From the NCBI GenBank assembly GCA_012845835.1, contig JABAKD010000014.1:6902574-6966573 (forward strand): a stretch of 64,000 bases of DNA. Direction: 5' to 3'. The stretch's first letter is position 1, and the number at the start of each line of letters is the position of its first letter. Below, one piece after another: positions 7,632-44,842 of the stretch. Source of the stretch: Undaria pinnatifida (taxonomy: Eukaryota > Sar > Phaeophyceae > Laminariales > Alariaceae). The notes beneath the pieces were generated by a model. It was not told where the DNA came from. It was given only the letters and a program-made list of their open reading frames with translations, and did no database searches. Made by a program: the position numbers and the translations under genes.

Positions 7632-9449
7632 CTACAGCCAGAAGCCCCCCACCGGCATCAACCACTCACCCGCTCGGAACGATGGCTTGTCGATCACCAA
7701 CCCTGCACAGCTGTCACGCATGCCAAAGACCATGTCCATGCCGGTACCACCACCACCACCATCCTCCGTCACAGCGCCCGAATTGCAGGGAACCTTAAAG
7801 GACACCTCCTCCGCGACGACGCTGCAGCTGTTCACCTGTGAGACCGGGGGTGGACGCGACGAAGGGGAAAAACTGCAGATAATTTGAAAAGACGCCCCTC
7901 CCCCGTCCGCGGCGACGCTGCAGCTATTCACGGGTGAGGTCGGGGATGAACGCGATAAGGGCAAAGAACTGTAGGGAACTTCGAACACCACCTCCCCCAC
8001 CTTGGCGGAGGCGCTGCAGCTGCTCACTGGCGACGTCGTGGGTGCACGTGCTGAAGTCGATGCAGTGTCTTGCTGATACACCGCCGCTGATGCTGACGCC
8101 GACGCTGGCGGCATGGATGCTGGTGCTGACGGTGTGGACGATGATGCTGACGGCGATGGCGTGCTGTCAAGGTCCACGACGTCACAAGCACTCGGTGTTG
8201 GCGGCGTACTGCCAAGGTCCTCCACGGTCTTAGCACTCCACGGCACCCTAGCCAGCTCTTCGCACAGGTGCTCAATGACGAGGTCGAGCGAGATGCACTC
8301 ATCATCGAAGTCCTCGAGGTACTCCTTGCGGATCTTGGCGAGCTTACCGATGGAGGGGGCAGCCGCAGTCCGCATAATGCCTCCATCCTCGAAAGGATCG
8401 CCGCCCGCCAGATAGGACTCAATCACCACGCCGCAAATTGCTTTGGCCCCCCACTTGAACACCTTGAGGCCTATCTCACGCTTGTTTGGCGGGCAGAGGC
8501 CTACAGCGGTCGGGAGGTGGGTGAGGCATTCGGTCGGGGTAAGCTCCGGTGGAGGCCCGGCCGGCTCGAGTTCGATCGTAGCGGAGGAGAGGTCGACGAG
8601 CTCGAAGGATACTGCGCTGGCGTCTTTTGGCGCTTCAAAATCTCTCGCGTCGTCGGTTACATAGTAGCACTCGACTTCGTCAACGTCGCTCGAGGAATCG
8701 AACTCGTTCGAGTAGTCGTCGTAGTCGGATTCGTAAACGTCGCTCGAGCCATCGAAGCCGTTTGAGTTGTCGTAGAAGTCGGATTCGTAAACGTCGCTAG
8801 AGCCATCGAAGTCGCTGTCATCATCATTTCGAGAAAATTCGTAGATACCATCATCATTATCACCGTCAAGCACTTCATCATCGCCATCGTAGGAGTCGTA
8901 GGAGATGTCGGAAGCGCACTCATCAAGATCATCATCGCCATCGTCGAAACAAGAGTCGGCGGAGATGTCAGGAGCCCCACCCTCCCAACCCTCACCATGA
9001 TCGCAAGAAGACCCAGCGGAGGTTTCAGAAGCACCACCATCACCAAGATCATCCATGCAAAACGAGTCGCCAGAGATATCGGACGCACGCTCGTCCCAAC
9101 TACTGCCATCATCGAAGGAGGCGTGGTCGGGCTCGAGATCATCATGGCCGTTGGACTCGTAGTCATCGTCGCTGATGGTATACTCATGGTTGATGGAGTC
9201 GTCGGTGATGGTGCTCTCGTGGTCGTCGTTGTCGCTCGAGGTGTCGGATGCGTCCGTGTAGCGTACATCCTCAGCTTCGACAGTGTAGCACTCGTCGTCG
9301 CTGACGATGCTCTCGGCATGGTAGCCATCGCTGATGGTGCACTCGTTGTCGCCGTCAACACCGATGATGTTCTCGTCATGAGAGTCGTTGCTGATCGTGC
9401 TCTCGTCGTCCGAGTCGTCGTTGGAGATGTCGGTATCTCTGTCTCTCTT
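7632..9449 (-). CDS. Very acidic Asp/Ser-rich repeat protein, long exon
   Basis: The minus-strand frame is open for 605 codons and ends at TAG (7634-7632). An in-frame ATG at 9056 would give 474 residues, but the frame stays open for 131 more codons of the same composition up to a good acceptor, CACTGTAG|AAG at 9450/9449, so I infer an upstream exon that I could not locate. Residues about 1-290 (counted from 9449) are almost entirely Asp, Glu, Ser and Asn with imperfect repeats such as DGSSDVYESD. Residues about 305-415 are the only part that looks globular, with motifs LPTAVGLCPPNKREIGLKVF and EYLEDFDDECISLDLVIEHL. The tail is Ser/Pro/Ala-rich and holds three units of about 32 residues marked by S-P-V-x-S-C-S followed by a V-x-F hydrophobic pair. 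I recognise no family; a disordered acidic nuclear or scaffold protein is only a guess. The opposite-strand open frames are its shadows. Confidence 0.6.
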   Translation of the reverse strand, partial: KRDRDTDISNDDSDDESTISNDSHDENIIGVDGDNECTISDGYHAESIVSDDECYTVEAEDVRYTDASDTSSDNDDHESTITDDSINHEYTISDDDYESNGHDDLEPDHASFDDGSSWDERASDISGDSFCMDDLGDGGASETSAGSSCDHGEGWEGGAPDISADSCFDDGDDDLDECASDISYDSYDGDDEVLDGDNDDGIYEFSRNDDDSDFDGSSDVYESDFYDNSNGFDGSSDVYESDYDDYSNEFDSSSDVDEVECYYVTDDARDFEAPKDASAVSFELVDLSSATIELEPAGPPPELTPTECLTHLPTAVGLCPPNKREIGLKVFKWGAKAICGVVIESYLAGGDPFEDGGIMRTAAAPSIGKLAKIRKEYLEDFDDECISLDLVIEHLCEELARVPWSAKTVEDLGSTPPTPSACDVVDLDSTPSPSASSSTPSAPASMPPASASASAAVYQQDTASTSARAPTTSPVSSCSASAKVGEVVFEVPYSSLPLSRSSPTSPVNSCSVAADGGGASFQIICSFSPSSRPPPVSQVNSCSVVAEEVSFKVPCNSGAVTEDGGGGGTGMDMVFGMRDSCAGLVIDKPSFRAGEWLMPVGGFWL

Positions 9450-14280: not shown

Positions 14281-16375
14281 AGGATTAATAGTACGCACTC
14301 GGGGGGGTTCGAACTCACGAAGCTGATTTATACGTACCTGTACCAGGCGCGAGGATATAACCTGATACGCCACCGGAGCAGTGAGTGATATAGAGCCGTT
14401 CGCCCCGATGGTCTAGGGGCGTTACATTCGAATATTACTACTATTAATAATAGCGTTGGTCCTTGAGTTATATAACCACCGTTGTGAGCTTTGTTGGCTT
14501 CATTTATTTGCAGAAATAAAAGGGGAAAAAAAGATCAACTAACAACTAACTGCTGAAGCGCACGCATGACTAAACGAGGAGGAGATAATGGTGATTACGA
14601 TTACTGCACCGCCAGGAAAAGCCACGCAGCAAGCAGCATCGCGAGTAGCTGCGTCCCCGGGGCCTCGAGGGTTGTATTATACAAGTTCCTCCTGTTGTTA
14701 AGCTGCGCCACTCGAAGGTGGTGGTAACTAGGCAGTAGAATGGCGTGCTTTGTTGTTGCTGTGGTCCCTGACTCCGTTGCTGTGGTCGTTTGCCGGTCAA
14801 CTGCAAGCGGTCGTGAGTTGGTACGTAACTGACAAATAAGTTTGTGTTGCTTCGTACTTGTCGTGCTCCTTATTTTTGCTTATTGCTGATTGATCACATC
14901 TTCTACGTAGTGGTATTTTTTTTTTGACACACTTCTACTTGTCAGCTTCTGGACATACATGTCGTGGTCACAGGTGTCGTCCTTCCCGCCCCCCCCCCGG
15001 TTATTGCCTTCATTTTTTTTTGGCGCATAGGGTTCAGCACCCACTCATCGTCGATTTTTCATCGAGTGTTGTTAACTCACGCTCTCGCGCTTTCCGCAAG
15101 TCAATTAGAGCACAAGACGACAAATTATACGAGTACGCACTCCGGGGCATTCGAACTCACGAAGCTGACCTATACTAGGCTCGAGGATAGAACCTGATAC
15201 GCCACCGGGGCAGTGAGAGTGATATAGAGCCGGTCGCCCCGGTGGTCTAGTGGGTTACACTCGAATACTACTGCTATTAATACTAGCATTGGTCCTTGAG
15301 TTATATAACCACCAGTTGTGAGCTTTGTTGGCTTTATTTATTTGCAGAAATAAATGGGAACTGGGGCAGTGAGTGATATAGTCTAGAGCCGGTCGCCCCG
15401 GTGGTCTAGTGGGGTTACACTCGAATACTACTGCTATTAATACTAGCATTGGTCCTTGCGTTAAATAACCACCGTTGTGAGCTTTGTTGGCTTCATTTAT
15501 TTGCCGAAATAAATGGGGGGAAAAAAAATCAACTAACTGCTGAAGCGCACGCATGGCTAAACGAGAAGGAGGTAGTAATGATTACGATTACTGCGCCAGG
15601 AAAGGCCACACAGCAAGCAGCATTCATTGCGAGTGGCTGCGTCCCCGGGGCCTCGAGGGTTGTATCATCCAAGTTCCTTCTGTTGTTAAGCTGCGCCACT
15701 CGAAGGTGGTGGTAACTAGGCAGTAGAATGGCGTGCTTTGTTGTTGCTGTGGTCCCTGACTCCGTTGCTGTGGTCGTTTGCCGGTCAAGCGCAGGCGGTC
15801 GTGAGTTGGTACGTAATTGACAAATAAGTTTGTGTTGCTTCGTACTTGACGTGCTCCTTATTGCTGCTTATTGCTGATTGATCATCTCTTCTAGTTTTTT
15901 TTTTGGCACACTTTTACTTTTCAGCTTCTGGACATACAAGTCGTGGTCACAGGTGTCGTCCTTCCCGCCCCCCCCCCGGTTATTGCCTTCATTTTTTTTG
16001 GCGCATAGGTTTCAGCACCCACTCATCGTCGATTTTTCATCGAGTGTTGTTAACTCACGCTCTCGCGCTTTCCGCAAGTCAATTAGTGCACAAGACGACA
16101 AATTATACGCGTACGCATCATTCGGGGGGATTCGAACTCACAAAGCCGGCCAATACCAGGCTCGAGGATAGAACCTGATACGCCACCGGGGCAGTGAGTG
16201 ATATAGGGCCGGTCGCCCCGGTGGCCTAGTGAGGTTGCACTCGAATACTACTACTACTATTAATACTAGCGGTGGTCCTAGAATTAAATAACCACCAGTT
16301 GTGAGCTTTGTTGGCTTTATGATTTTGAAATAAATCGAAAAAAAAAGGATCAACTAACTGCTGAAATCCCCTAGC
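14280..16375 (+). repeat. ~0.99-kb direct duplication carrying tRNA-like SINE heads
   Basis: A block containing CGAATACTACTGCTATTAAT, CACCGTTGTGAGCTTTGTTG, the GGCAGTAGAATGGCGTGCTT segment and the CATCGAGTGTTGTTAACTC segment occurs twice (about 14430-15240 and 15425-16210), offset by about 991 bases. The junctions at about 14385, 15235, 15400 and 16210 carry GTCGCCCCGGTGGTCTAG, which resembles a tRNA A box. On the minus strand, near 16135, GAGTTCGAATCCCCC resembles a B box. The frames in the two copies are not conserved, so this is non-coding element DNA. See the complete SINE copy at 25560-25890. Confidence 0.7.
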
Positions 16376-16585
16376 AGCGTGGGTAGGTACAAATCGACGC
16401 GAATCGACGAGGGAAGTAAACGCTGAATTCTTCTCGCAATAAAACTTAGGGCAGGTACCCTAGTGGGGATGGGGAAGGGGAGCCCGCTATATGACCCCGG
16501 ATCAAAGTTTTACCACTGGGAGGGCGAAAGTAATGCGAGAATCACTCTAAGTGGGATGGGAAAAAGAAAAGAAGTGAAGTGTATT
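16205..16585 (+). mobile_element. tRNA-derived SINE-like element, family 1, copy at end of duplication
   Basis: The head GGTCGCCCCGGTGGCCTAG is followed by the GAGCTTTGTTGGCTTTAT linker and then a body with GTGGGTAGGTACAA, GACGCGAATCGACGAGGGAAG, CCGCTATATGACCCCGGAT and a G/A-rich end. The same order is seen at 25560-25890, and the body alone appears inverted at 20510-20715. Confidence 0.6.
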
Positions 16586-18332: not shown

Positions 18333-19370
18333 CTACACGAAGCACGGGTGCCGGCGCCCATGCGAAGCCCTTGTAGTTATATACCAGGTACTCCGGAGTA
18401 CAATATCCTCAGTTTGCGCACTCTTGCCTCTATGCTCTCGGAAGCTGCCCTTGGCAAGCGCGTCGGCGTACGATAGGGTGTGGTCGTCGCGCTTCCGTTT
18501 TCGCCATCCGAGGCATCGGAGGAGCATGGAGTGGTGAACCCGTCGTAGCCTGTCATAGTCAGGTTTGTTCGGGCTCCACGTCATGCAACCGTAAAGCAGT
18601 GTCTCGACCACCTCAGCTTTCAGCAACCACACCTTCGACCGTTAGCGCACACGACACGCGGGCGATCATAGACTTCCATCTTGGTACCGCTGGAAGCACG
18701 CCCAGGCCCTGCTCTGAAGACGCCGAGTTATTTCAATGGTAAGGTCTCTGTCTGCGGTGATAGCCCCGCCCAAGTACACAAACTCATTTGCATGTTTGTA
18801 TACCTGGCCGGCTGCATTGATTGTGAACGACACCTTCCCCCCGCCTTTGGTTTGCAGGCACATAATCTCTGTTTTCGCCTCCGAGACCGTAAGCCCGAAC
18901 GACGAGCACGCCGTCACGATCACCGACATCCTCTCCAGCCCATCTGATGATCGCGATACGATGCCCGCATCGTCCGTGTACAGCATACCCCACAATCTCT
19001 GCACCTCCTCCCCCTCCTCCCCCCTCCGCCCGTCGACTTTGCCTGTGCGTGAAGTGCCCTTCTTCCCGCCTTTCTCCTTTCGTTGGAGCTGCACCATGTT
19101 GTCCGTGATGGCTGCATCAGCAAGGACGCGTTTCTCGGCCACACGCACTGCAGTACCATGAAAAACATGTAACAGCAGTGGCGCGAGAACGCATCCTTGC
19201 CTGAGACCTTGCCCCACGTCGAACTTATCCAAGCACTCTCCATCATCCAACTGCACGCATGCTTGCATGCCGTCGTGGAATTGGCGGATGACGGCGAGCA
19301 TTCTCGGTGGGACGCCAAAACGAGCAAGGACACCGCACAGAAGGGTTCGGTCGGCGGAGTCATATGGCCA
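18333..19370 (-). pseudogene. LINE-type reverse transcriptase, truncated and broken
   Basis: Reading the minus strand from about 19370, the frame shows reverse transcriptase landmarks: [13 protein letters not shown], then [12 protein letters not shown] (the catalytic Y-x-D-D block, here YTDD), [17 protein letters not shown] and [10 protein letters not shown]. The frame is broken near 18665, after which TLLYGCMTWSPNKPDYDRLR and the CLGWRKRKRDDHTLSYAD region of the usual C-terminal domain follow to 18333. The endonuclease and the N-terminal half of the polymerase are absent, so it is a dead 5'-truncated non-LTR retrotransposon copy. It belongs to a different lineage from the LINE at 37.6-39.7 kb. 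The plus-strand frames over it are shadows. Confidence 0.85.
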
Positions 19371-20505
19371 GCTGTGGTGAGGTATGATGTTTGATACTCA
19401 AGTATTTGGTTTTTAGGGAGTTTCCATGTTGATGTTAGGATGTCTTATCCGGGCGTCCGAGTCCCCCCCTCTCACTGTCACAGGCAGGCTGAGCCACAAC
19501 ACAGACGTAAATTGAGATAATACGCTGCGTCTCAAGCATCATATTCGTTGACTGGAAGGGTTGGTGAGGAATTCAACTTCCCGCTCTAGGCATGGAGTAC
19601 ATCGACAGCAGTGCGGGCTTGCTGAGCAGCAGCAGCAGCAGCAATTACTCGTCGGACGACGAGTCTTGGTTTCAAATTTTCTGGGTCTTCGTTCTCTTCG
19701 TCGTCGTCATCTATCTATGTAAGAGCCATGTCTGCTGCAATATGCTCTCTGCGCCGACCCATGTCATATCGATATGTACGAGCACTGCGCGCCCTCTGCG
19801 ACTGTGGATCTCATCGTGCCATAGAGCAGGTAGCAACTGCGTTGGGTAGCCATAGAGGGTAGGACAGGGAAGCGCCACGAAGAGCAGGGGTCGCCTGCTA
19901 TGTCGGCGGAGGAACCTACCCCCAACGAACGCTGTCCGTTTTTCTTTTTCGGTGTTTTCGGTGCGAGCTTTCCGCAATTGTGTGTGTGTTGTGTGCCGTA
20001 TGCTGCCTGCTGTATAATAATACGATACAGATAGTAGTCCCCCCCTGCTGAAACAGAGCTACCGGCGAAGAATCAACGCAGACACTGGTTGTGGTTGATA
20101 TCGGTGGGTACACATCACGCACAGGCAGCAGAGCAGCAGAGCAGTACCAGTGCGAATACTCGTACTCGTACGTATACCAATAATACCCTGGTATTTAACA
20201 GCAGTTAAAACTTGGTTGAAATGCAGAAGTTGTGTCATTTACTGGCCTGCTGGTCGTTTTTGTTGCATTGCACATCAGCACAAGTCCGCAGGCATTGATG
20301 CAAACCGGTACCAAGCAGCAAGCAGCAAGCAGCAATGCAGCATGTTCATATGTCCATCTGTCTTTGTGAGCTTGATGCGGTTGTCAACGAAGGAAAGCGT
20401 CGGAAATAGTAACGTGGACGGGAGCTCCTATGATATGTTGCATAGCTTGAGATATCTCGAAATCGAAACGCTCATCACGAGTACCCGAAACTTTTTTTTT
20501 GCCCA
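19371..20505. other. No firm gene; one Ser-rich ORF
   Basis: A plus-strand frame at 19592-19849 encodes 85 residues with a run of six Ser, an acidic SSDDESW patch and a hydrophobic segment (IFWVFVLFVVVIYLC) that could span a membrane. It may be an exon, but nothing identifies it and flanking splice sites are ambiguous. The rest is unrecognised. Confidence 0.25.
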
Positions 20506-20715
20506 CCCTCGGCTCACCCCTCATCTCTATTATCTTCGCACTTTTCCTTTTTCCCTCCCTAGACGTAACTCAGATCCAGGGTCACGAAGCAGGCTCTTCT
20601 TCCCCCTCCCCCGTACGGCACGCGCCTTCGTTTTTATCACGAGAATACTTCAGCCCTTTCTTCCCTCGTCGACTCGCATCGAATTGGACCTGCCCACACG
20701 CTGCAAGGCGCTCTT
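20506..20715 (-). mobile_element. SINE-like family 1, body fragment
   Basis: In reverse orientation it matches the body of the elements at 16340-16580 and 25690-25890 (the G/A-rich end, the ATCxGAGTTAC and GACCCxGGATC regions, CTCGTCGACTCGCxTCGAATT). The tRNA-like head is missing. The fragment abuts the Harbinger-like element that starts at 20723. Confidence 0.55.
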
Positions 20716-20722
20716 GCCATTA

Positions 20723-21455
20723 GGCCATTTCTTACGCAGTCGGATTTGTCAGTCGAAAATGATCTTTTTCGGCTTAGGCCCAAATTGGGCTTTCTTACAC
20801 AGCATCTTTTTTCGACTGAGTTTACCGACTGGGGGATCCAGTCGAAAAACTCGGTCGAAAAAGTTTTGCACGTTCTTTTAACCTGTCGCATCGCTCATCC
20901 CACCACTAAGCACACCCACACGCCCACACACTCGTACGAGGTACCACACAGCAGTATCATACAAGGCGCTGACGATGGCTTGGCTATCATTGCTGTTGCT
21001 TCTCGCCGCAAGTCAGCGTGGCGCATTCCTAGCTCCCAGCTCCGCTCGCCAGGAGCGTGTATCACACGACGGCAGCAGAGCGCGGTATCGATCCCATATT
21101 GCCAACAACGGCTACGCCTGCTGTAGCTTTGGCGGCTCTCGGCTGAGTGTAACGTAGCTTTGGCGGCTTTCGGCTAAGCCCAAAGCCATCAACTCGCTGG
21201 ACGAAGACTCATCGAGCTCGAGCACGCGTTGCTCGCGGAGAACGCGCGAGTCACAGAGCTGCCAACCGATTTTCGACTGCCATACAGCAGTATGATACTC
21301 CCTCACACCAACCGCCTCTATTAATAGGAAAAGCACAAAAGGTATAAAATCGACTCGAATGACGATAAGAAGGACCAGAAGATTCCAGTCGAAAAAAAGT
21401 CCAGTCGAAGAGGACCGTTTTCGACTGGCGGAATCCGACTGTGTAAGAAATGGCC
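20723..21455 (+). mobile_element. PIF/Harbinger-like non-autonomous element, copy A
   Basis: The element begins GGCCATTTCTTACGCAGTCG and ends in the inverted form CGACTGTGTAAGAAATGGCC. It is flanked on both sides by TTA (20720-20722 and 21456-21458), the three-base target duplication typical of PIF/Harbinger elements. Inside each end are several copies of a motif around CAGTCGAAAA in both orientations. No transposase is present, so it would need one supplied in trans. Copy B at 26437-27233 lies in the opposite orientation. The middle carries a short hydrophobic-start reading frame described separately. Confidence 0.8.
20975..21157 (+). CDS. Small presequence-like ORF inside Harbinger copy A
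   Basis: The ORF starts MAWLSLLLLLAASQRGAFLAP: a short hydrophobic signal-like segment followed by an A-F-L-A-P motif and basic/Ser residues, which resembles stramenopile bipartite plastid presequences (ASAFAP-type). Copy B on the minus strand near 26800-26950 keeps the same peptide through AFLAP but has CTG in place of the ATG. After AFLAP the two copies are in different frames because of a small indel. In the alternative frame copy A would continue with SVYHTTAAERGID and TATPAVALAALG before a stop, as copy B does. It may be a captured exon, a small element-encoded protein or chance, and expression is unknown. Confidence 0.3.
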   Translation: MAWLSLLLLLAASQRGAFLAPSSARQERVSHDGSRARYRSHIANNGYACCSFGGSRLSVT

Positions 21456-21459
21456 TTAG

Positions 21460-23035
21460 CAGGTGATTCCTGTGATTTTTTTTTCTTGCATATAAACTCA
21501 AAAAGTCCGACCCACGTGAAACTCCAAAACGAACTGCTGTACGAAGCAAAGAACATTCAAGGGTAACCACCATTACAGACCACCGGGGCGACCAGTGCCA
21601 TGTTGCCTGTAATTTCACCCTTCCCCCTCGGCTTGCAACTTGAGACAGTAGCGCTGCACGAGTAATATTATATTTGATATTTGTAGTTCGTTCCCCCCAA
21701 GTGTCAACCTTCTTGATTGTTGACAGCGGTGTTCGTTGTTCATGGCATTGGTCGTACCCTTTCTCCTGTTTGCCGCTGTCCTCGGGCTGCTCGCTCCTCG
21801 CCCCCCCCCTCGGGCTTCTCGCCTACCCCCTCGTGGAAGGTGCTGGCGTCCTTTATGGGCAATGCTTTGCACCTTGGACAGGTCAGGTTCCTATCCGTGA
21901 TATATGTCTCAGAGCAGATAGATCCCTGGTCTGTTATGGACTGCATGACCTAGATCATGTTGCCGGGTGGGAGCCCTATGATGTGCATGATTGATGTATG
22001 TAGCACATGGTTTCTGGGTTGGATATGTACTGCACACGTCCTGTCCTACATAGCCGTGCGGCAATCATAACGACAAGTACATTATCGATATTATCTACGG
22101 CAGTAAGTTGTAGATTGTGGTATTTTAGGCGTGTGAAAGGTTCAGTTGGCGACAACGAAAGCTCCCTCACGGACCCCTGCCGTGTACCAGGTAGCACCCA
22201 AAATATATATAGCACGCAAGATACCACAACCCGGAATGAATTTCGGAGAAGGTTTCTTCCGAAACCAAGGTGGGCACACACAACGAAAGGGCGACTTCGG
22301 GGAGAGGTCGTCGAAACGTTACCGTAGACGATTTGCTCGGCGTGTGTGCAGTCCCCCCGCTTTTGAACAAAGTCGGCTGGGGGTCGTTCTCAACGATGCG
22401 TACAATATTTCACCCAAGATAACGGCGAGTTTTGCTTTTTTCAGATTCTGGAACAGAACAAGAAACAATCTGTAGCTTGTTGTGAACGGAGAATTGTGAG
22501 GTTGAAAGTTCTATAATCGAGTGTGTGCGTTAAAATGAATTCAATCTAAAAATTCAAGCAATTAAGCAATTAATCCCGCCGAGCGAACTTTGAAGGAAGA
22601 ATTTGCCAAAAACGGCATGAAAATTCCAATTTGAGTGAACGGTTTAGAGTGTACTACCATCAATAACGGCCAGATCATACGATTGGCCTACGAGGTACCA
22701 AGACTAGGCACAACGGCACAACAATCAGAGGGCACGAGGGCACAACTCACACGGCAGCACACAGCGGACACTGATCGTTGTGGGCTGTGCTTGGCAGCGG
22801 TAGACACAACCCAACATTGATGCGGAGGTACCAAAGAGTAGCTGGGAAAGCATGGCGCGTACGCGCAACCTCAGGGGTCGGTGCTAGTGAGCCAGCGCTC
22901 ATGCGCTCTCTACGATGTGACCTCGTTCTCTGCTGCTGCGTGATGTCGTATTCGGTACTGATTTTGTCAACCACCGTCGCTATCCCACAACGGTGTTGCC
23001 GAAGCCTCCACCGCCACCGCCACCCACCCCGCACG
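21460..23035. other. No gene supported
   Basis: Short open frames only, without conserved features. Part of 22147-22320 encodes a charged frame on the plus strand, but nothing identifies it. Confidence 0.35.
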
Positions 23036-23305
23036 GCCGCCGCCGCCGCTCCTGCTGCTGCTGCTGCTGTGCGGCGGCGGCTGTTGTGCTGCGGCTGCGG
23101 TTTGTGTCTCCTGCGTTTGTTTCTAAAAAAAATAATAAAATACTGGCTGTTCTGCTGTTGTGATGATCGTGATGATCGAGCCAGGCCGAGCTGCGGTGCC
23201 GCAACTCCTCTGGCGGGGCCATCGCCACCGCCACCTCCGCCCCCGCCGCTACTGCTGCTGCTGCCGCTGCGGCTGCGGTGCTGCTACTGCGGTGCTGCTG
23301 TTTGT
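23036..23305. repeat. CTG/CCG triplet-rich cluster
   Basis: Two clusters of CCGCCG and CTGCTG units (about 23038-23110 and 23220-23305) flank a less biased centre. The 236-codon plus-strand frame spanning them is Cys/Leu/Arg-rich because of the triplets and is not a convincing protein. Confidence 0.65.
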
Positions 23306-23559
23306 CTGATGGTGTTGTGCTGGGCCTGCACCTGTCGGGGTCTAGGTGCTACCGCACCGTGTCTAAATTCAATATTTGATGTTACTTCCCCGCTCCCCGC
23401 CTGTGATATGGACGCCTTTTTTGCGATTCGTTCGTTGGAAACACAACCAAAAGCATGCCGGAGTGAATCTGGCCTTCTTCTAGCATGATGGAACAATTTT
23501 TAGTGAAATATTTTAACGCAAACACTCGAATTTTGAAAAAACGGAAGAATGCATTTCAT

Positions 23560-23790
23560 TCAGCTGTGAGATCGACCAAAAAGAAATTTTGATGAAAACT
23601 CAGCTTTGCAAGCTGCGTGTGATACTTCGATCGCGCGTGTTACGGGGTATGTATACCCTCGTGAAGGATGCAGGTCGGTGACTCCCCTGCTAATGCCAGG
23701 GTCAACAGGACTACTAACACGCGTTCAGCCTTGTTCTGCGCATGGAAACTGTATAACCCGCATTGAGGGGGACAAAACCAGACATCTGTG
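23560..23790 (+). repeat. CAGCTGTGAGATCGA multicopy repeat
   Basis: It carries the ordered phrases CAGCTGTGAGATCGA, CTTTGCAAGCTGCGTGTGAT, CTTCGATCGCGCGTGTTACG, CAGGTCGGTGACTCCCCTGC, GGTCAACAGGA and CATGGAAACTGTATAACC. The same order appears at 16905, 27580, 30555, 49965 and 57505 (plus) and 31430-31650 (minus). No open frame is shared. It does not fold into a tRNA or match 5S rRNA that I can recognise. Confidence 0.7.
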
Positions 23791-24539
23791 CAATTCAGTA
23801 TGCGTAAAAATATCATTGTTACTCTTGGAGTGGGCTACTTGAGTCTGCCGGGTTTGTACGCAAGTTCCTGTGTACTCCTTGTATAAGTGGCAGGCCAGCG
23901 GAGGTCCAGCCCATGCCTGATGCTCGTGCTGCTAGTGCTGTCGAGCCATGATGGAACATGCGGTGGACGTCGATCGCTGCTGTTCCGAAGTGATCTCTCT
24001 TCTGCTCTTGATGTAATGCAAAATCACACTCACACGCCTGTATTGATCGAATGAAGACCGACGAGTGAGATCTGGCGTTCTGCATCAGGCGTCAGGTGGT
24101 GCGCACTTGATCCTAAAGCTCTTCGAGCGCCCATCTCGCACACCACCAGGGATTACACAAACTAAAACGTGGATCCAAAACGCCAGACCCCTGCTCTCCC
24201 TACAGATGGAAGCTCTTGCGCTAAAACTATACCAGGTACATGATCAAAAGTGCGTGTCGCCGCAGCCGATTGTTTTTCCTATTCCAGACAGCCTCCTCCA
24301 TGGATATTTGGGTGGAGCAACCGCGGCCATAAATTAGCGCACCTGTAAATTAGATGGTGGGGAAGGTCGGAAGTCATGTCGTGAAAAGCACGGAACGACT
24401 TCCTCCACAATTCTGTGATGAATGTTGATCGGGACTACTTGCTACATACAACAAGCAAGACATTCCGGATGGGTCGATATCTCCGAAGAGTCGACGTGTT
24501 AGAACGGGCACCACAAAAAGCGTGAGCCGTACGTACATG

Positions 24540-24612
24540 GGTATTCCTCAGCTCCAGAGTGACTGGAGCCTGTCCTGTGACCACGGACTTGATTATGCGA
24601 GTTAATGTGAGA
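24540..24612 (-). repeat. GTT-linked dispersed repeat, inverted copy
   Basis: Read on the minus strand it gives CTCACATTAACTCGCATAAT, CAAGTCCGTGGTCACAGGAC and CTGGAGCTGAGGAATAC, matching 11235-11300. It directly abuts the expanded AAC array. Confidence 0.7.
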
Positions 24613-24786
<174 letters not shown>

Positions 24787-24899
24787 TGGCCATCATGATA
24801 GATTATGTCAAGATATAAATACAGGCCGGGGAGGTCACGAGTTTTTCAAGCGAAAATAACAAAACGAAAGATGACACACCCCCTGGCATTTTTTTTTTT

Positions 24900-25540
24900 T
24901 TCAGTTTTTGATGAAATTTCGGAGTTTTGCCGAACTCAAAGAGGGTTGAATCTTATCGAGTACGAGCCTCAGTTGGCTCACCAAAGAATCGTCCACCTGG
25001 CACAGAACCGTTACTGCAGCAGCAACGCTCGCGGAAGTCACCCGCGTGGTTGTCCCACTGGAGTCGGCCTGACTCGTAGGCCGGTGTCGGTGCCTTGCGG
25101 AGTGAAATCCACCACCAACTGGTCGCGCTACAACACCCAACCTGACACAAATCTCAGCTGTTGCCCTCAGCGAGCTCGTTCGGTCGGCGCCTCGGTGCGG
25201 TCACTTTGTCAAGTCGACGACGTGAGCTCAAAAATTCACTGCGCCTTCTGCGAATAGTCATGACCTGCCAAGATTACCTTGGGAACGACCCTGCTCAGTC
25301 TTGTGCGCTCGCGAGTGATGGCACAGCTCGAACGGTGCGGCTGTCCGATCCTGTACCTATACGTATAAGTGTCTGCTTTTCCCGAAGGAAACTGAAAATA
25401 GGTGCCTGGTACTGAAGAGGCGAGTTTTTCCGGGGTCGATTTTGTTCGGGTTTCCGAAAGAATCTCGGGGAAAACCAAAACTTTCTCGAAAACCCGAAAT
25501 AATCTCTTCGTTAATAACAAGCCTAACCGACGAGTGAGTG
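24900..25540 (+). repeat. ~650-bp dispersed repeat, copy 2 of 2
   Basis: It is collinear with 855-1545 (shared GAAATTTCGG, TCGCGGAAGTCACCCGCGTG, TCACTTTGTCAAGTCGACGA and CTTGGGAACGACCCTGCT). The end of the copy is rich in CCGAAA and TTTCTCGAAAACCCG. It lies immediately downstream of the AAC array, while copy 1 also follows a GTT-linked block at 560-735, so the two repeats may belong to one larger element. Confidence 0.65.
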
Positions 25541-25559
25541 CTATATAGTACCAATACAA

Positions 25560-25890
25560 GGCCGGTCGCCCCGGTGGTCTACGTAGTGGTTACCCTCGAA
25601 TACTACAGGCGGTGGTCATTCAGTTCGATTCCGACCGTGCTTAGATTTTGACTTTATTTGCAAAATGCAAAAAAAGTATCAACTGCTGAGGGCGCCTAGC
25701 ATGGTGGGTAGGTACAACTCGACGCGAGTCGACGAGGGAAGAAAATGCTGAACTATTCTCGCGATAAATATGAAGGCACGTACCGTAGTGGGGAGGGGGG
25801 AGTAGAGGACCCGCTATGTGACCCCGGATCTGAGTTACTACTGGGAGGGAGAGCGAGAGTAGTGCGAGGATAAGAAATGGGATGAAGCAA
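25560..25890 (+). mobile_element. tRNA-derived SINE-like element, family 1, best copy
   Basis: The head contains an A-box-like TGGTCT-acgt-AGTGG (25575-25589, with a 4-bp insertion) and a B-box-like GTTCGATTCC (25623-25632) in GGTGGTCATTCAGTTCGATTCCGACC. A TTTATTTGCAAAATGC linker follows, then a body with GTGGGTAGGTACAACTCGAC, CTCGCGATAAATATGAAG, CCGCTATGTGACCCCGGAT and an A/G-rich 3' end. Boxes A and B at tRNA-like spacing suggest an RNA polymerase III promoter. There is no coding capacity. Confidence 0.65.
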
Positions 25891-26036
25891 AAAAACGAAC
25901 AAACAAACATCGAGGGACAATAGCGTGCAGCAGCACGGGTATCAGCGTTTTACACGCATGTCACACGATCGTATAAAGTAGTTCCTATCAGTTCGATTCG
26001 GAGACATCCCCTATTACACCCCCTACAATTTCCGTA

Positions 26037-26300
26037 TACCGTACCCCAGCAGCCCGGGCTGAAACGTGCGTTCGATGCTACTGCTGCAGTCGGCATTTCC
26101 AAAATGTTAAAATGTGAACGATAGCTGTTGAGTCTCGGTCAGCTCCCCGCAGCATGCCAACCCCGGTGATATAAAACCTTAGCCCCAAAAATGTTATCAC
26201 GGGGTGTGTGCTATGCTGCAATATACTGCTGTACCCCGGCAGCCCGGGCTGAAACTTGAAACGTATGTTCGATGCTATAGTCGGCATGCTCACTACTGTT
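26037..26300 (+). repeat. ~60-bp duplicated unit
   Basis: GTACCCC(A/G)GCAGCCCGGGCTGAAAC ... GTTCGATGCTA ... AGTCGGCAT occurs at about 26041-26096 and again at 26232-26288. Between them lies a segment containing the inverted pair CCCCGGTGATA and TTATCACGGGG. Confidence 0.6.
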
Positions 26301-26436
26301 TGTAGGTCAGTGGTTATGGTGTGCATGAACCGAAAAGCACACTCGGGGGTGCGTGTGGCAAGGCCACGGAGGATCTTACCCGCCCCTTGGTCCCCCGGCT
26401 CAATATTTCGACTTTTTTTTTTTAAAATCATAATTA

Positions 26437-27233
26437 GGCCATTTCTTACACAATCGGATTCCGCCTGTCGAAAACGGCCCTTTTCAACTGGACTTTTTTT
26501 CGACTGGATTCGTCTGGTCCTTCTTCTTGTCGTCAGTCGAGTCGATTTTATAGTTTTCGTGCTCTTCCTAGAGGTTGTTGGTGTGAGGGAGTACTGCTGT
26601 CCTGCTCTATGGCAGTCGAAAATCGGTTGACAGCTCTGTGCTTCGCGCGTTCCCCGCGAGCACCGCGTGCTTCGCGCGCGACGAACCCTCGTCCAAGGGG
26701 GTTGGTGGCGTTGCACTTTAGGCGAAAGCCGCCAAAGCTACGTTTGTGGCGTTGCACTCAGCCGAGAGCCGCCAAAGCTACGGCAGGCGTAGCCGTTGCA
26801 GGCAAAGTGGCATCGATACTGCGCGCTGCTGTCGTCGTGTGATACACGCGGCTGGCAAGCGGAGCTAGAAATGCACCACGCTGACTTGCGGCGAGAAGCA
26901 ACAGCAGTGATAGCCAAGCCAGCGTCGGCGCTGTTGTATGATACTGCTGTGTCGTAGCTGGTATGGGTGTGTGGGCGTGTGGGTGTTTTTGGTGGTGGGA
27001 TGAGCGATGCGATGGATTAAAAAAACACGTGTAAAACTTTTCCGACTGGGCTTTTCGACTGGCAGATCCAGTCAAAAAAGTCGAGTTTTTCGACTGGATC
27101 CCCCAGTCGGAAAACTCAGTCGAAAAAAGTTGAGTCCGAAAAGCTCTTTTTTCGACTGTGTAAGAAAGCCATTTGGGCTTGAGTCGAAAAAGGCCGTTTT
27201 CGACTGACAAATCCGACTGTGTAAGAAATGGCC
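26437..27233 (-). mobile_element. PIF/Harbinger-like non-autonomous element, copy B
   Basis: The ends are GGCCATTTCTTACACAATCG and CGACTGTGTAAGAAATGGCC, flanked by TTA at 26434-26436 and 27234-27236. The interior is the reverse of copy A, with similar order and spacing. The right-hand subterminal region (27035-27215) is packed with TTTTCGACTG and CAGTCGAAAA motifs, at least eight in all. The presequence-like frame is present on the minus strand but its ATG is changed to CTG. No transposase is seen. Confidence 0.8.
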
Positions 27234-27579
27234 TTACGACGGTTTCGAAAGACCTAAGACTGCCACTTTCCACCAATCAGTGGCCCCGATATTAATCAAT
27301 ATTAATGGGGTCAGCAAACCCAAGCCATGAGGATCGCAGGCTGACTTGTTGGGATCATCAGGACGGCGCGCTTTGGCGGACACATGGCGGCCCCACAAGT
27401 TAAGGCCACCGATGTCCTCAGTCATGACATCTGTACAAAAATGGGGGCGCTTGACTTCCGTTGTGTCGAGAGCTCCATGACGGCGACTTTTTGTATCCGG
27501 CCAATTCGACAAAGACCGACGCAGCTCCCAGAGAAGCTCCATCCTCAGGCCTTTTTGTTAAAGAAAACCCGGAAAAGTA

Positions 27580-33799: not shown

Positions 33800-36700
33800 T
33801 GTGCCACACGGCGGACAACTACTTTTCTCCCGTGTTGGCTGTCATATGCGATCTGGTGAGAGCGAGCGGTGGATGGGAGGATGGAGGGGGGGGGGGGGGG
33901 GCTACTTTGAGGTAACATCGTAGACGGGTGGGCTCCGATCAACAGGGAGTAACAAGAGAGATGCAGATGTGCAGAGCGACATTATGTGGTGGTGTCCCAA
34001 CAGATATCTACGTCGATTGCACGTTGCAATTTTGGTAGCAGCGTTAAGCATGCACGCCTACATTCCAGCAGCAAACCCGCGACGATATCCCAGAGGACGC
34101 CCTGACCACTTTTTAATGAATTCCTCGTGCAACACCCTTCCCTGGTTTGGTCGAGGCTAGTCTTTCGGCCACCTGGGTGTATTTTGGGGACAACCCACTG
34201 AAACACGCAGCGAAAGGAACCGCGCTACCGCCCGTGCCGACCTCGACCCCCCCCTCCCAAGGGTAGAGGTTAAGGAGTAGGGGTGGCAGCGTACTTCGAT
34301 AGAGGCGCACTTATCGTTTTCTGGTGCTACTCGTTTTGAGGAGTTCCATACCGAACCCCACAACGGATTGCGATAAAGTATGAATCTGCAACCCGGTGGA
34401 CAGTTTTCATGGCCTATATATATATATATATATTTTTCAGCTGGACATGCCTCCTCAATACGTGCATGATCTGTTCAGTGCCATGCTAACCTCCGTGTCC
34501 CCAACCCCCCCCCCCCCCGCCTTCCCTTGCACCCTCGGGTTTGCGGTGGTTTCCGTGACGACTTTTCTTGAAAACAACTTGCAGCTGGACATGCCTCCTG
34601 AAGTTGCCGGCGTGACGTTCCTAGCTTTCGGAAACGGTGCTCCCGACGTTTTCGCGGCTATCGTCGCCTTGACTACCGCTACGGACAAGGAGAGCGCTCT
34701 GCTGGTGGGGGTGGCATCGCTACTGGGATCATGTGCGTGCTTGAAATGGAGCTGAGCTAGCGTTGTTACGGTAGAGAAGGTGCTTTGTTTCGTAAGTCTG
34801 TGGGCTGTCTGGAGTCAACGGGTAGTTGTTGGGGGAGGGTAGAGGGAGAGGGGGCGGTGTACTCATTTCATGCGCAGCCGTAGTCGTTCAGACCATTGGC
34901 CGTCGCATCCCTACCCTGCTGGGACGCAACACGTCGGGTTGTCGACGACCAGGCAGAAATCGGGTGCACCAAGCGCGAAGCTCCGTGAGGGGTTCGGTGA
35001 GTCGCATGAAGGGTGAGCTGCATCCTACTAAGAACTCCTTGTGAGGCGGACTTCCTCACCTTGTGCGTAGTTAAATTTCTTGCACATCGGATGACAGCTT
35101 CGAATTTATTTACTTGCTTTCTGGTGTGGCCGCTTGAAGAAACAGCAACGAGGATACTATGAAACTGCCTCGTGGATGCCTTACCATGCCCACATTACGG
35201 GGGGGGGGGGAGGGGGGGGAAGATAACATACGTTCACGTGATTGACGTCTATTTTTCGTCATAATGGGACGCCACCGTGCTCTGTAGACGGGGGCGGGGG
35301 GGGGGCGGGGGAGAGCAAGGCGAGGGAGTGGAAGAAGGAGAGTGGCTCACCCTCACGCCAACCATCACCTCCACTCCCACCCCCCATCCCTACCCCTCCC
35401 CCCCCCCCCCCCCCCCCCCCACCCTTACCCCCACCTCAATCCCACCCCCACCCCCCCGCATTTTTGCCCCACACGCATAGCTATTGTTTTTCGGCGATGA
35501 TGACGGATACAGTGGTGGTGGGTAGTGTTGTTCGCGTTGCTCTCACCCCGCCCCACCCCACCCCACCCCACCCCACCCCACCCCACCCCACCCCACCCCA
35601 CCCCACCCCACCCCACCCCACCCCAACCCATCCAACCTCACCCCACCCCACCCCACCCCACCCCACCCCACCCCACCCCACCCCACCCCACCCCACCCCA
35701 CCCCACCCCACCCCATCCCACCCCAACCTATCCAACCCCACCCCACCCCACCCCACCCAACCCCAACCCATCCAACCGCAACCCACCCCACCCCACATGC
35801 ATGGCTATCGTTTTTTTCAGCGGTGATGACGGTGACAGTGGTGGTGGGTAGCGTTGTTTATGTGGCTTCGACGGTTGCTGCGACCAAGGTGCCCCCGGCG
35901 TCGTTTACTCGGGACGTTGTGTTTCTATTTTTGGCGCTTCTGCTGATGCTGGGCTCGGCCTACGCGGAGAGAATTTCGGTGAGAGGGTTTTTCTTCTGTG
36001 GTTTTCGTGTTGTTTTTTTATTCGCTTTGTTTTATTGTGCGTTCATGTTTGTGTGTGTGTTTTTCTCGTTGTTTGTTCTTGCTATTTTTCTTTTTTTCTT
36101 TTTTTCTTTTGTGTTTTCGTGTTTTTGTGTTTTTTTTTTTTGGGGGGGGGGTTGTTTCCTTGTTTTTGATCCAGCAAAATGTTCTTAGTCTTGTTTGTTG
36201 TTCCTTTTGTATTAATTGTTTTTTATTTGCTGTGTTTTTTCTTGTTTTTCTCGGGTGTTTTTCATCCTTTCTGCTGTGAATAGAACAGGATCGCTGTTAT
36301 TTCCTGTTTTTTTTATATCTTGAGAGGGTTTGCATTATAGTCGGCGGGGGGGGGAGGGGATTTGAACTTTCTTGTTCGTGAAAATGGGGTGATACTTTAG
36401 GGCTCGCGGTGAACACGTTAGAGGTGGGTCGCATGTCTGTTGATGCTATGTGGGGTGGTGTTGGAGTCGGATGTAGAGTGTAGGGTAAGACAGGGAAGGG
36501 TGGGATAACGTGTGGAGCATCGGGGAGGTGTGGTATGGTGTGATTTTGTCCGTTGTAGTAGCGTATAGCGCAGTGTACTGCATTTTAATGCAGTCCCGTG
36601 TAGGGTCGTGCAACATGGGGTTTTTATGGTACCCTTCTTAGACCTTCAATGTGGTGTAGTATGGTGTGGGGTAGTGTTGTTGTTGTGCCGTGCAACGTAA

Positions 36701-42700: not shown

Positions 42701-44842
42701 CCGGTCGAAGCCGACTCGTGGTCCCAGACCCAAGCCGTGGTGCGTTTTTGTGTGATTTGTCTTTCGTCGTGTTTTTTGTTTGCGTGTTTTTTTCATTCGT
42801 TTTTGCTTCTAGTTTTCTTTTTTTCTTATGGTTGGTCAGGTGCCGGCATTATATATATGTTTTTCTTTTTTTTACGTTTTCTTTTTCTCTGGATGCAATG
42901 GCAATTACGGATGCCTATTTGCCTTTAAATGGACAGCGTTGCCATCCTAGAGTTAATCTGGTATAGCGTTTGTCGTCCTTGAGTATGCCTTCATCCTCAT
43001 GAGTCGTGCGGAACGCTACGACGCCTTCGGTCGAGACCGACCCCTGGTCCCAGACGCAAGCCGATGAGTTCTTATTTTTATTTTTATTGTTCTCACCTTT
43101 TTTTTCTCAGTTTTAGTTTTCTCCTTTTCCTTGTTCTCCTCTTTTTTTTCTCCTTTTTCTCCTTTTTTTATTTTTACCGTCTTGTTTGTTTGTATTGTCA
43201 TGTATAATTTCGTTTCTTTGTGTTCGTTACGGTGGCCTACCCTTGCTTATATGTTCACCACTGGTACCACGTGCTCGTATTTTTTGGGGATCGCGTTCGT
43301 TGAGCGTTGTAGCGTCAGCCGCAAAAGTCTCGTATATATCTTTTTATTGTGATTTTCTGGGTAAGCCCAGTGTATAATCCGATCATATGTTTTTGTTGAG
43401 CTTGCGCTGCTATCCTTCCTCCTATGCCCCTGCACAATCAGGTGGGAACTGCCCTGGCGCCTACCCTCATCGTCTGGGCATTCGGCCTCTGGGGAAGCGG
43501 CTTCCTCGGCGCCCCCGGGGGTTTCTCGTGGGGCGTGGTGGCGTTTTTGGTGGGGATTCCGCTGGGAGTGGCGGTGGCTTTGACGACCCACAAGCGGCGC
43601 ATGCCGCGGGACCGGTTGTATCGACTGGGGTTGGCGCTGGTGGCCTTCGTGTCCTGTGTGGCGTGGATTTATTACCTGGCCAACCTCGCGGTGATGTTGA
43701 TTGAGGTCAGTGAGAGGGGGAGAGGAAGGGGGACGGGGGTGAGGGTAGGGTAGGGGGGAGGGAGGGAGGGAGAGGGGAGGGTTCTCCTTCCCCCTTGTCG
43801 TTGGTTGAGGTCAGGGGAAGGGGCAGAGAGGGGGGTGGGGCGTGCTCATTTGTTTGTTGTCTTGGTCGCTAGACCATTGGACACTCATCCCTTTCGAGAC
43901 GGAGCACCGTTCATACTCCGAATAGAGACACCTCCGACATTTGGGCACTCAGCACGTTTCTTCCATATGTATCGGGGGGGGGGGGGGTTCCGGCCCATGT
44001 CGTTGCTTAAGGTCAGGGGGGGGAAAGGAGGGGAGGGAAGAAGGGGGGGAGGCTGGAGAAGGTGGGAGAAAGGCAGGGGGGAGGAGGGGGGAGGACGGGG
44101 GAGGGGAATGCCCCCCCCTCCCCCCATTCTTTATGGTGATGGATTGCCTTTTCGAGGTAGTTGTTGTTTGGTGTATCCTTGGCAAACTGGCAATGCCCCA
44201 CCCCGCCCTTCCTCCCTATTACGGCGCTCAGGATGTTGGAACCGATGCTAGCCCTGGCATTCCTAGCGCGGGGAACTCCTCTGGTGAACTTGTAACCCAA
44301 CAATGAACATAAAAAACTAAGCTAAACTAACTAAATAAATAATTTACTAATACAAAATAATATAAACTTGAACAACTACACGAAAATATCCCCAACCCCA
44401 TCCCATCCCACCCCATCGTTCTCCCTAAATGGTTTATCAGGACATTGGCGAGGCCACTGGATTGCCCAGCAGCGTGCTAGGCCTGAGTTTCCTAGCATGG
44501 GGCAACTGCGCTGGTGACTGGGTCACCAATCTCGCCGTGGCGAAGGCTGGTTACCCTGGCATGGCCATCGCTGGCTCGTACGGGGGACCTCTCTTCAATC
44601 TGCTCCTTGGCATAGGTCTGCCCATGGTGTGGAACTGCTCGAGAAGTTATCCCGAGCAATCTGTGTTTATCTTGGACGCTCCCACGATGTTTACCCTGTA
44701 CACTGCGATTTTTGTGTTGGTTTTGACTCTGCCTGCGGTGGCGTTATCGGGATTTGGGTTTCCCGAAAAGAGTCCCCTGGCTTTGCTCGGGATCTACGCG
44801 TTGTATATAGTTGTGGCTATAGTGATTACTCTGGCTTGGTAG
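33800..44842 (+). CDS. Na+/Ca2+ exchanger family protein (NCLX/CCX type), nine exons, 5' end missing
   Basis: Exons: 33800-33855, 34585-34732, 35821-35978, 37329-37519, 40202-40622, 41452-41759, 42538-42739, 43442-43705 and 44441-44842 (TAG). Every junction is GT-AG and the phases chain correctly, giving about 715 residues. The protein should exchange Ca2+ for a monovalent cation across an organelle or plasma membrane. Exon 1 gives TADNYFSPVLAVICDL; exon 2 gives the alpha-1 repeat VAGVTFLAFGNGAPDVF. Exons 3 and 4 carry helices (VVFLFLALLLMLGSAYA; LWLATCYLALYGVYVVCVF). Exons 4-6 encode a long hydrophilic, Gly/Glu/Ser-rich loop. Exon 7 has CVLEYPFILVRNATIPPVE, which in this family precedes the second helix bundle. 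Exon 8 is hydrophobic, and exon 9 holds the alpha-2 repeat LSFLAWGNCAGDWVTNLAVA and GGPLFNLLLGIGLP. The key Asn and Asp of both alpha repeats are kept. Exon 5 is the least certain, although its acceptor (GCACGCAACAG) restores frame. The N-terminal exon(s) with helix 1 were not found. Introns contain a LINE and decayed exon copies. Confidence 0.88.
34438..34458 (+). repeat. Duplicate of the alpha-1 exon start, giving an in-frame alternative acceptor
   Basis: CAGCTGGACATGCCTCCT-C-AA here repeats CAGCTGGACATGCCTCCT-G-AA at 34582-34602, the true start of exon 2. The upstream copy follows (TA)n and TTTTTCAG, a strong-looking acceptor, and the frame is open and in phase from 34441 through exon 2. 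Using it would add 144 bases (48 residues, including a Pro run) without changing the frame. Confidence 0.75.
35180..35470. repeat. G-rich then C-rich simple sequence in intron
   Basis: G runs at about 35199-35219 and 35288-35309 and a C run of about 22 at 35399-35420, inside the intron between exchanger exons 2 and 3. Confidence 0.8.
35474..35546 (+). pseudogene. Decayed copy of exchanger exon 3 start
   Basis: CACGCATAGCTATTGTTTTTCGGCGATGATGACGGATACAGTGGTGGTGGGTAGTGTTGTT (written here only to locate it; see 35799-35865) repeats the true intron end and exon start with a few substitutions. The copy has TTTTTCGG where the true exon has TTTTTTTCAG, so it has no acceptor AG and cannot be spliced. 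The CCCCA minisatellite lies between the copy and the original. Confidence 0.8.
35547..35798 (+). repeat. CCCCA pentanucleotide minisatellite
   Basis: Around 50 tandem CCCCA units with a few CCAACC-type interruptions (AACCCATCCAACC recurs about three times, giving a higher-order pattern). Intronic. His/Pro-rich or Trp/Gly-rich translations are artefacts. Confidence 0.95.
35979..37328. other. Intron between exchanger exons 3 and 4
   Basis: A T-rich first third (TTTTTC and TTTGTTT runs, 35990-36330) is followed by G/T-rich DNA with GTGTGG phrases and then unremarkable sequence. C-rich DNA precedes the acceptor GTGCTCAG at 37328. No element is recognised. Confidence 0.6.
37538..37620. repeat. 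CCCT microsatellite in exchanger intron
   Basis: C homopolymer and (CCCT)n just after the donor of exon 4 (GTAAGTG at 37520). Confidence 0.8.
37621..39690 (+). pseudogene. LINE reverse transcriptase, decayed, inside exchanger intron
   Basis: The copy is in the same orientation as the host gene, between exons 4 and 5. Landmarks in order: RPNRSCIDHVYT near 37735, FLDVQKA(stop)DTVW near 37833, MWEIGVRGKVQ at 38092, ISQGVAQGCTPSPNLFEVYV near 38202, GLMFADDLVLIS near 38330 (the catalytic F-A-D-D block), LGVEISKE near 38555, KLEYAGEVWGGNAKF near 38720, and the terminal PNVGGVSMRSMNGASSRKGC near 39590. It has several stops and at least one frameshift (between about 38160 and 38200), and a 198-bp insertion splits it at 37893-38090. 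The 5' half (endonuclease) is absent. The long antisense frames over it are shadows. Confidence 0.88.
37893..38090 (+). mobile_element. 198-bp element inserted in the LINE with 10-bp target duplication
   Basis: GATGTGGGAA flanks it on both sides (37883-37892 and 38091-38100), and the LINE frame resumes across the duplication at the same residues (KTMWE / KMWEIG). The element starts CGGCAGCTTGCGCTGCCGG and ends CATCCGCCGGAGGAA, and matches 30318-30532 and 62470-62632. It has no coding capacity and no clear terminal inverted repeats. The target duplication shows it moved after the LINE had inserted. Confidence 0.85.
39691..39900. repeat. C/T-rich tract after the LINE tail
   Basis: C homopolymers above 15 and CCCTCC/CTCCTC repeats, including two near-identical copies of a roughly 50-base unit containing CCGCTCTCTCCTCC. 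Intronic. Confidence 0.8.
40680..41075. repeat. CCTTGACGG inverted-repeat elements in exchanger intron
   Basis: CCTTGACG or CGTCAAGG-type phrases recur at about 40694, 40717, 40738, 40755, 40972, 41038 and 41058, bracketing A/T-rich segments (AAAAATTACAAATA; AAAAATTATAGGATTAGTCC, then AAAGACGCCTTGACGG). The same phrases are found inverted at 47170-47470. This looks like a small palindromic mobile element family. Confidence 0.55.
41105..41400. repeat. ACAAC/CCCCA-rich simple sequence
   Basis: ACACAACACAACAC repeats at 41128-41175, then C-rich CCCCAC units. Intronic, just before the acceptor TTTACAG at 41451. Confidence 0.8.
42893..43075 (+). pseudogene. Decayed duplicate of exchanger exon 7
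   Basis: From GCAATGGCAATTA through GTCCTTGAGTATGCCTTCATCC to CCTGGTCCCAGACGCAAGCC, this segment follows exon 7 (42538-42739) collinearly with substitutions and small indels. The frame is interrupted, the acceptor side is missing and the donor GTGGTGCG has become GATGAG, so it should not be spliced. It lies about 170 bases downstream of the true exon. Confidence 0.85.
43740..44135. repeat. G-rich intron with echoes of the exon 8 donor
   Basis: The exon 8 end GTTGATTGAGGTCAGTGAG is echoed by TCGTTGGTTGAGGTCAGGGG near 43798 and GTCGTTGCTTAAGGTCAGGGG near 44001. The intervening DNA is G-rich, with runs above 10 at 43976-43987. Confidence 0.55.
43855..43970 (-). mobile_element. LINE 3'-end fragment, antisense in exchanger intron
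   Basis: The minus-strand frame reads ECPNVGGVSIRSMNGAPSRK, the terminal peptide of the LINE family at 39.6 kb. It is a short, 5'-truncated copy in the intron between exons 8 and 9, opposite to the host gene. Confidence 0.75.

Follow-up and report, generated by a model that had tools for sequence, protein, structure and literature searches.

A high-copy, very probably PIF/Harbinger-type MITE family in Undaria pinnatifida with a presequence-like frame in its interior

A stretch of 64,000 bases from the genome of the brown alga Undaria pinnatifida (contig JABAKD010000014.1, positions 6,902,574 to 6,966,573 of the forward strand; here called the window) holds two related elements, A and B, which are very probably copies of an abundant, non-autonomous miniature inverted-repeat transposable element (MITE) of the PIF/Harbinger type, and the hydrophobic peptide that can be read from them is very probably a chance frame in a non-coding interior. 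A preliminary description made from the letters of the window had proposed Harbinger-like elements carrying either a plastid presequence captured from a host exon or a small gene of their own. The class fits the ends, the TTA/TAA duplications and the copy number; the captured presequence and the element gene are not supported.

Elements A and B

The two elements are TTA-flanked, as first described, and lie in opposite orientations with their left ends 5,714 bp apart. Both begin with GGCCATTTCTTAC and end with its complement. The features of the pair are listed below with the basis of each call.

20720 to 20722, no strand: TTA target-site duplication left of A (flank comparison)
20723 to 21455, plus strand: element A, 733 bp, a full-length non-autonomous MITE, very probably Harbinger-type (sequence, alignment, genome search)
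20723 to 20746, plus strand: left terminal inverted repeat of A, pairing with the right end at 23 of 24 positions (end pairing)
20975 to 21154, plus strand: 60-codon frame MAWLSLLLLLAASQRGAFLAPS... flagged in the preliminary description and taken here for a chance frame (of 94 copies A alone has ATG at this codon, and coding constraint is not seen)
21432 to 21455, minus strand: right terminal inverted repeat of A (end pairing)
21456 to 21458, no strand: TTA target-site duplication right of A (flank comparison)
25500 to 25873, minus strand: related copy, without insertion, of the repeat that hosts A (empty site; junction alignment imperfect)
26434 to 26436, no strand: TTA target-site duplication left of B (flank comparison)
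26437 to 27233, minus strand: element B, 797 bp, second full-length copy, inverted, ends pairing at 23 of 24 positions
27234 to 27236, no strand: TTA target-site duplication right of B (flank comparison)

The alignment of A with B places 638 of 718 bases as identical (88.9%) and contains 13 gaps. The insertion site of A is another dispersed repeat, and its related uninterrupted copy provides an empty site for comparison. In this alignment a single T(T/C)A marks the junction and is adjoined by a gap of 6 bases; the empty site therefore supports, and does not prove, an exact duplication at A. Each element also contains a subterminal imperfect palindrome, of about 55 bp in A (20808-20862) and about 90 bp in B (27038-27127).

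Copies in the Undaria genome

The species' own assembly, which consists of 511,146,479 bases in 68 contigs, was searched for further copies. The searches by likeness score the best of the first-look candidates. A search by DNA likeness returned at least 121 matching pieces (40 scored of 2,457 first-look candidates). A genome-wide search by the terminal inverted repeat, as the preliminary description had advised, revealed many copies: the exact 24-base terminus occurs 298 times (152 forward and 146 reverse), and the reversed control does not occur at all.

The structure of the family was examined in a sample of 31 copies, comprising A and B together with 29 copies retrieved because their DNA resembles that of A. 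The copies are 695-797 bp long with a mean pairwise identity of 91.2%, and their termini pair at a mean of 22.1 of 24 positions. The 3-bp flanks are identical in 18 of the 31, every one of them TTA or TAA, and differ by at most one mismatch in 28; control 3-mers taken one step further out are identical in two. The motifs GTCGAAAA and TTTTCGAC occur within 200 bases of the ends at a mean of 8.6 per copy.

Copies of the MITE often adjoin or nest, as at eight loci (L005, L021, L028, L040, L048, L070, L072 and C61:12020480-12022229). At L005 six bases, TAATAA, separate the start of a second copy from the first, as though a TWA flanking one copy had been targeted a second time. Outside the alga, no copies were found in viral contigs by three patterns or in prokaryotic genome contigs by one pattern; by the peptide, 41 stretches in viral contigs fitted the short pattern and none was confirmed.

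Assignment to PIF/Harbinger

Ends of the GGCC type are typical of PIF/Harbinger, and TTA/TAA duplications, GGCC termini and a high copy number together give the anatomy of a PIF/Harbinger MITE. The assignment to this superfamily (Tourist-type) is thus supported by the ends, the target site and the copy number as read from the sequences. Two features are less usual: a length of 695-797 bp is long for a MITE, and an inner partial copy of the terminus (TTTCTTACACAG), present in both A and B, sets them apart from PIF/Harbinger MITEs.

The absence of a transposase from this basis counts against the assignment. No recognisable transposase came up when the peptide and eight other frame pieces from A and B were compared with Pfam; the eight pieces gave three weak matches (E 0.08-0.2), all below the curated cut-offs, and the peptide gave none at E<=0.1. 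A MITE from some other superfamily that likewise targets 3 bp would account for a Harbinger-like appearance with no transposase linked to these ends, yet this alternative is very unlikely, given ends of the GGCC type. It is also disfavoured by the target sites: in rice and maize most PIF elements are reported to carry TTA/TAA duplications (PMC8903248), and TNA targets are reported for Harbinger elements of Ectocarpus (PMC12477816).

The Ectocarpus families described in PMC12477816 provide the closest parallel, some of them being non-autonomous and some having TNA targets. The Harbinger-N families among them resemble the Undaria family in having terminal inverted repeats, a 3-bp target duplication (TTA/TAA here, TNA in Ectocarpus), many copies and no recognised transposase. 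The comparison is one of described features. In the literature searched, the terminus string GGCCATTTCTTAC had no match and no paper was found that names Harbinger, a brown alga and a MITE together.

The peptide frame across copies

The peptide of A consists of a hydrophobic core, then A-F-L-A-P, then a basic stretch. The shared internal frame first described is borne out: the frame at 20975-21154 is present up to AFLAP in B, with a 7-bp difference between A and B directly after it. This arrangement resembles the bipartite plastid presequence with its ASAFAP motif as described in PMC4329603. In the family it differs from such a presequence in its start codon, which is present in A alone, in a motif that is not conserved, and in not being seen joined to any protein.

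These differences emerge from an alignment of 94 distinct copies, made up of two from the window, 30 from loci fetched by DNA likeness, 56 from loci fetched by likeness to the peptide and six from loci fetched by the exact terminus. Selection by the peptide favours its preservation, and the counts therefore lean towards the earlier proposal. The start codon is ATG in one of the 94, namely A itself, and CTG in 71. Against the statement that one copy had lost its ATG, it is therefore most likely that A gained one. Of the 94 copies, 13 contain AFLAP and 36 the looser pattern [AGSC]FxxP, so the phenylalanine at +1 of an ASAFAP-like motif is not conserved. The majority sequence of the 31-copy sample reads CTG and LAWLSLLLLLAASQRGAFLVPLASSV, with AFLVP, and the majority sequences of the family and its subfamilies have no ATG before the peptide in the open stretch.

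Downstream of AFLAP the family is split. The frame of A continues in A alone of the 31 copies sampled by DNA; among 30 loci retrieved for their resemblance to the whole peptide of A, it continues in 23. The interior thus has two readings, and small length differences account for the latter half of the peptide of A.

The preliminary description had treated the peptide as specially kept in both copies; it is kept merely as any DNA shared by two copies of a repeat. Across 29 copies, divergence per site is 0.033-0.063 in the three 30-base windows over the peptide and 0.024-0.083 in 24 windows along the element. The peptide region is not unusually conserved as DNA.

Coding constraint

A protein-coding gene is expected to show fewer replacement than silent changes relative to expectation. 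Over 22 codons in 29 genome copies compared with the majority, 56 replacement changes (61.5 expected) and 38 silent changes (32.8 expected) give a ratio of 0.79. Ratios this low or lower occur in 264 of 871 open 22-codon windows on either strand, and the 54-codon consensus frame from CTG to the stop has a ratio of 1.06 in the 29 copies. The expected deficit of replacement changes is not seen, and the copies are without coding constraint in the frame, an outcome that the preliminary description itself had set against its proposal.

Several observations weigh against a chance frame. The frame is open through codon 22 in 88 of the 94 copies, though 56 of the 94 are from loci selected by the peptide. 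Two copies other than A have an ATG a few codons further on, and in three of the 31 sampled an ATG stands in frame further upstream, at a distance of 21, 72 or 92 codons. Longer open stretches that hold the peptide have ratios of 0.75 (86 codons, all 31 copies) and, in one subfamily represented by 19 copies, 0.84 (149 codons). A and B differ in three of the 19 codons that follow the ATG, and all three differences are silent; judged alone, exactly this segment gave such an outcome in 41 (2.4%) of the 1,714 simulations that had three changes.

The values of 0.75 and 0.84 fall within the spread of 0.53-2.10 of all stretches listed, and the longer stretch in the other subfamily (129 codons, eight copies) has a ratio of 1.07. 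Among 500 copies simulated under neutrality, 189 contain some stretch of 19 codons in which three or more changes are silent and none alters the residue. The element has other open frames of comparable or greater length, whose ratios are spread around 1, and a further conserved hydrophobic frame is present on the reverse strand in both A and B.

That the frame encodes a small protein needed by the family is exceedingly improbable. The openness through codon 22 favours it; the majority sequences without an ATG, the ratio of 1.06 over the 54-codon frame, the other open frames of comparable or greater length and the want of a Pfam match above cut-off speak against it. A search of PDB by the peptide gave a single hit, attributable to chance (E 0.65). 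Another frame of A (IELEHALLAENARVTEL), which looks like a coiled coil, was considered separately as a gene remnant and dropped, since all six codon changes within the ungapped part of the A-B alignment that spans it replace the residue.

The frequency of such frames by chance was estimated with a loose definition of our own, a signal-peptide-like frame beginning with M and followed by [AGSC]FxxP. Matching frames were present in 16, 17 and 26 of 4,000 random 733-base sequences under three null models, or about 0.4-0.65% each. This rate corresponds to about 0.35-0.57 expected in 64 kb, or one in every second or third window. The window itself contains two, the peptide frame of A and one within an exon of a Na/Ca exchanger.

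Search for a host donor

A captured presequence would have a donor gene in the host. A search of the genome by the peptide listed 150 matches from 3,977 first-look candidates, and 50 of these were examined, namely the 30 loci that had been fetched and another 20 at which long open frames occur. All 50 align with the element, 48 of them within 5 bases of a terminus and L072 within 17. The remaining locus, L078, holds an interior piece of the element; the left part belonging to it, which carries the terminus, is found on the same strand at a distance of 327 bases. Element A is among the 50, and L029 and L036 represent a single copy. Since all 50 are element copies, the host gene that was expected to share the peptide was not seen among the examined part of the 150 listed matches.

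This result bears on Pack-TYPE transposons, which resemble the Undaria family as non-autonomous class II elements with an interior of unknown origin and are defined by host coding sequence in that interior (PMC8903248); none is seen here among the 50 matches. Pack-type elements have also been sought in the Harbinger-PIF superfamily of rice and maize, as the same source describes. In the present case, a Harbinger MITE would long ago have captured the first exon of a plastid-targeted host gene, and the presequence would have decayed in most copies. The hydrophobic core, A-F-L-A-P and basic stretch of A, being features of algal secondary-plastid presequences (PMC4329603), favour such a history, as do the silent changes between A and B and the downstream frame of A in 23 of 30 peptide-selected loci, though these were selected for likeness to A. 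The history is nonetheless very improbable in view of the single ATG among 94 copies, the majority reading of CTG and AFLVP, the downstream frame seen in A alone of the DNA-sampled copies, the lack of constraint and the matches that are all element copies. Furthermore, by inspection an R occupies position -3 of the cleavage site that would have to precede F, which is unfavourable by the -3,-1 rule.

An extended form of this idea, in which the MITE ancestor captured the 5' exon of a plastid-targeted gene, its copies seed potential presequences across the genome and A is a re-activated copy, is extremely unlikely. Most copies (71 of the 94 seen) stand one base change from an ATG, which on this view they would regain.

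Proposed origin of the frame

The peptide is most likely a chance reading of non-coding DNA, and capture of a targeting signal is not needed to account for it. A Harbinger transposase encoded at another place in the genome may bind the ends and the subterminal motifs and mobilise the element in trans, with insertion at TTA/TAA. A CTG/TTG-rich stretch of the non-coding interior would read as leucines and so yield a hydrophobic peptide. As ATG is absent at that codon in the 93 other copies seen, A probably gained it by a point change, and the 7-bp difference would have set another frame behind the peptide.

An abundant, very probably Harbinger-type MITE family is described here for Undaria, in whose published annotation repeats listed as unknown make up 36.1% of the genome (PMC7058681). 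The case also illustrates how readily a hydrophobic frame within a repeat can pass for a conserved targeting peptide as long as two copies are all that is seen.

Other features of the window

Rfam and ARAGORN returned nothing on the whole window. The dispersed repeat split by A comprises 20530-20720 and 21456-21600; it recurs at 25500-25873, with similar pieces at 16370-16533, 15391-15426 and 15232-15266. It contains a tRNA-like stretch by eye (GGTCGCCCCGGTGGTCTACG...GTTCGATTCC) and is possibly a SINE (short interspersed element); ARAGORN found no tRNA in two stretches of it. An open frame of 605 codons at 7635-9449 on the minus strand is rich in D and S and has no Pfam match at E 0.1. Two exons of a Na/Ca exchanger gene lie about 10 kb apart at 34384-34752 and 44429-44839 (PF01699, E 7e-08 and 5.5e-21). 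A reverse transcriptase fragment at 18666-19397 on the minus strand (PF00078, E 6e-09) is probably the remnant of a LINE (long interspersed element).

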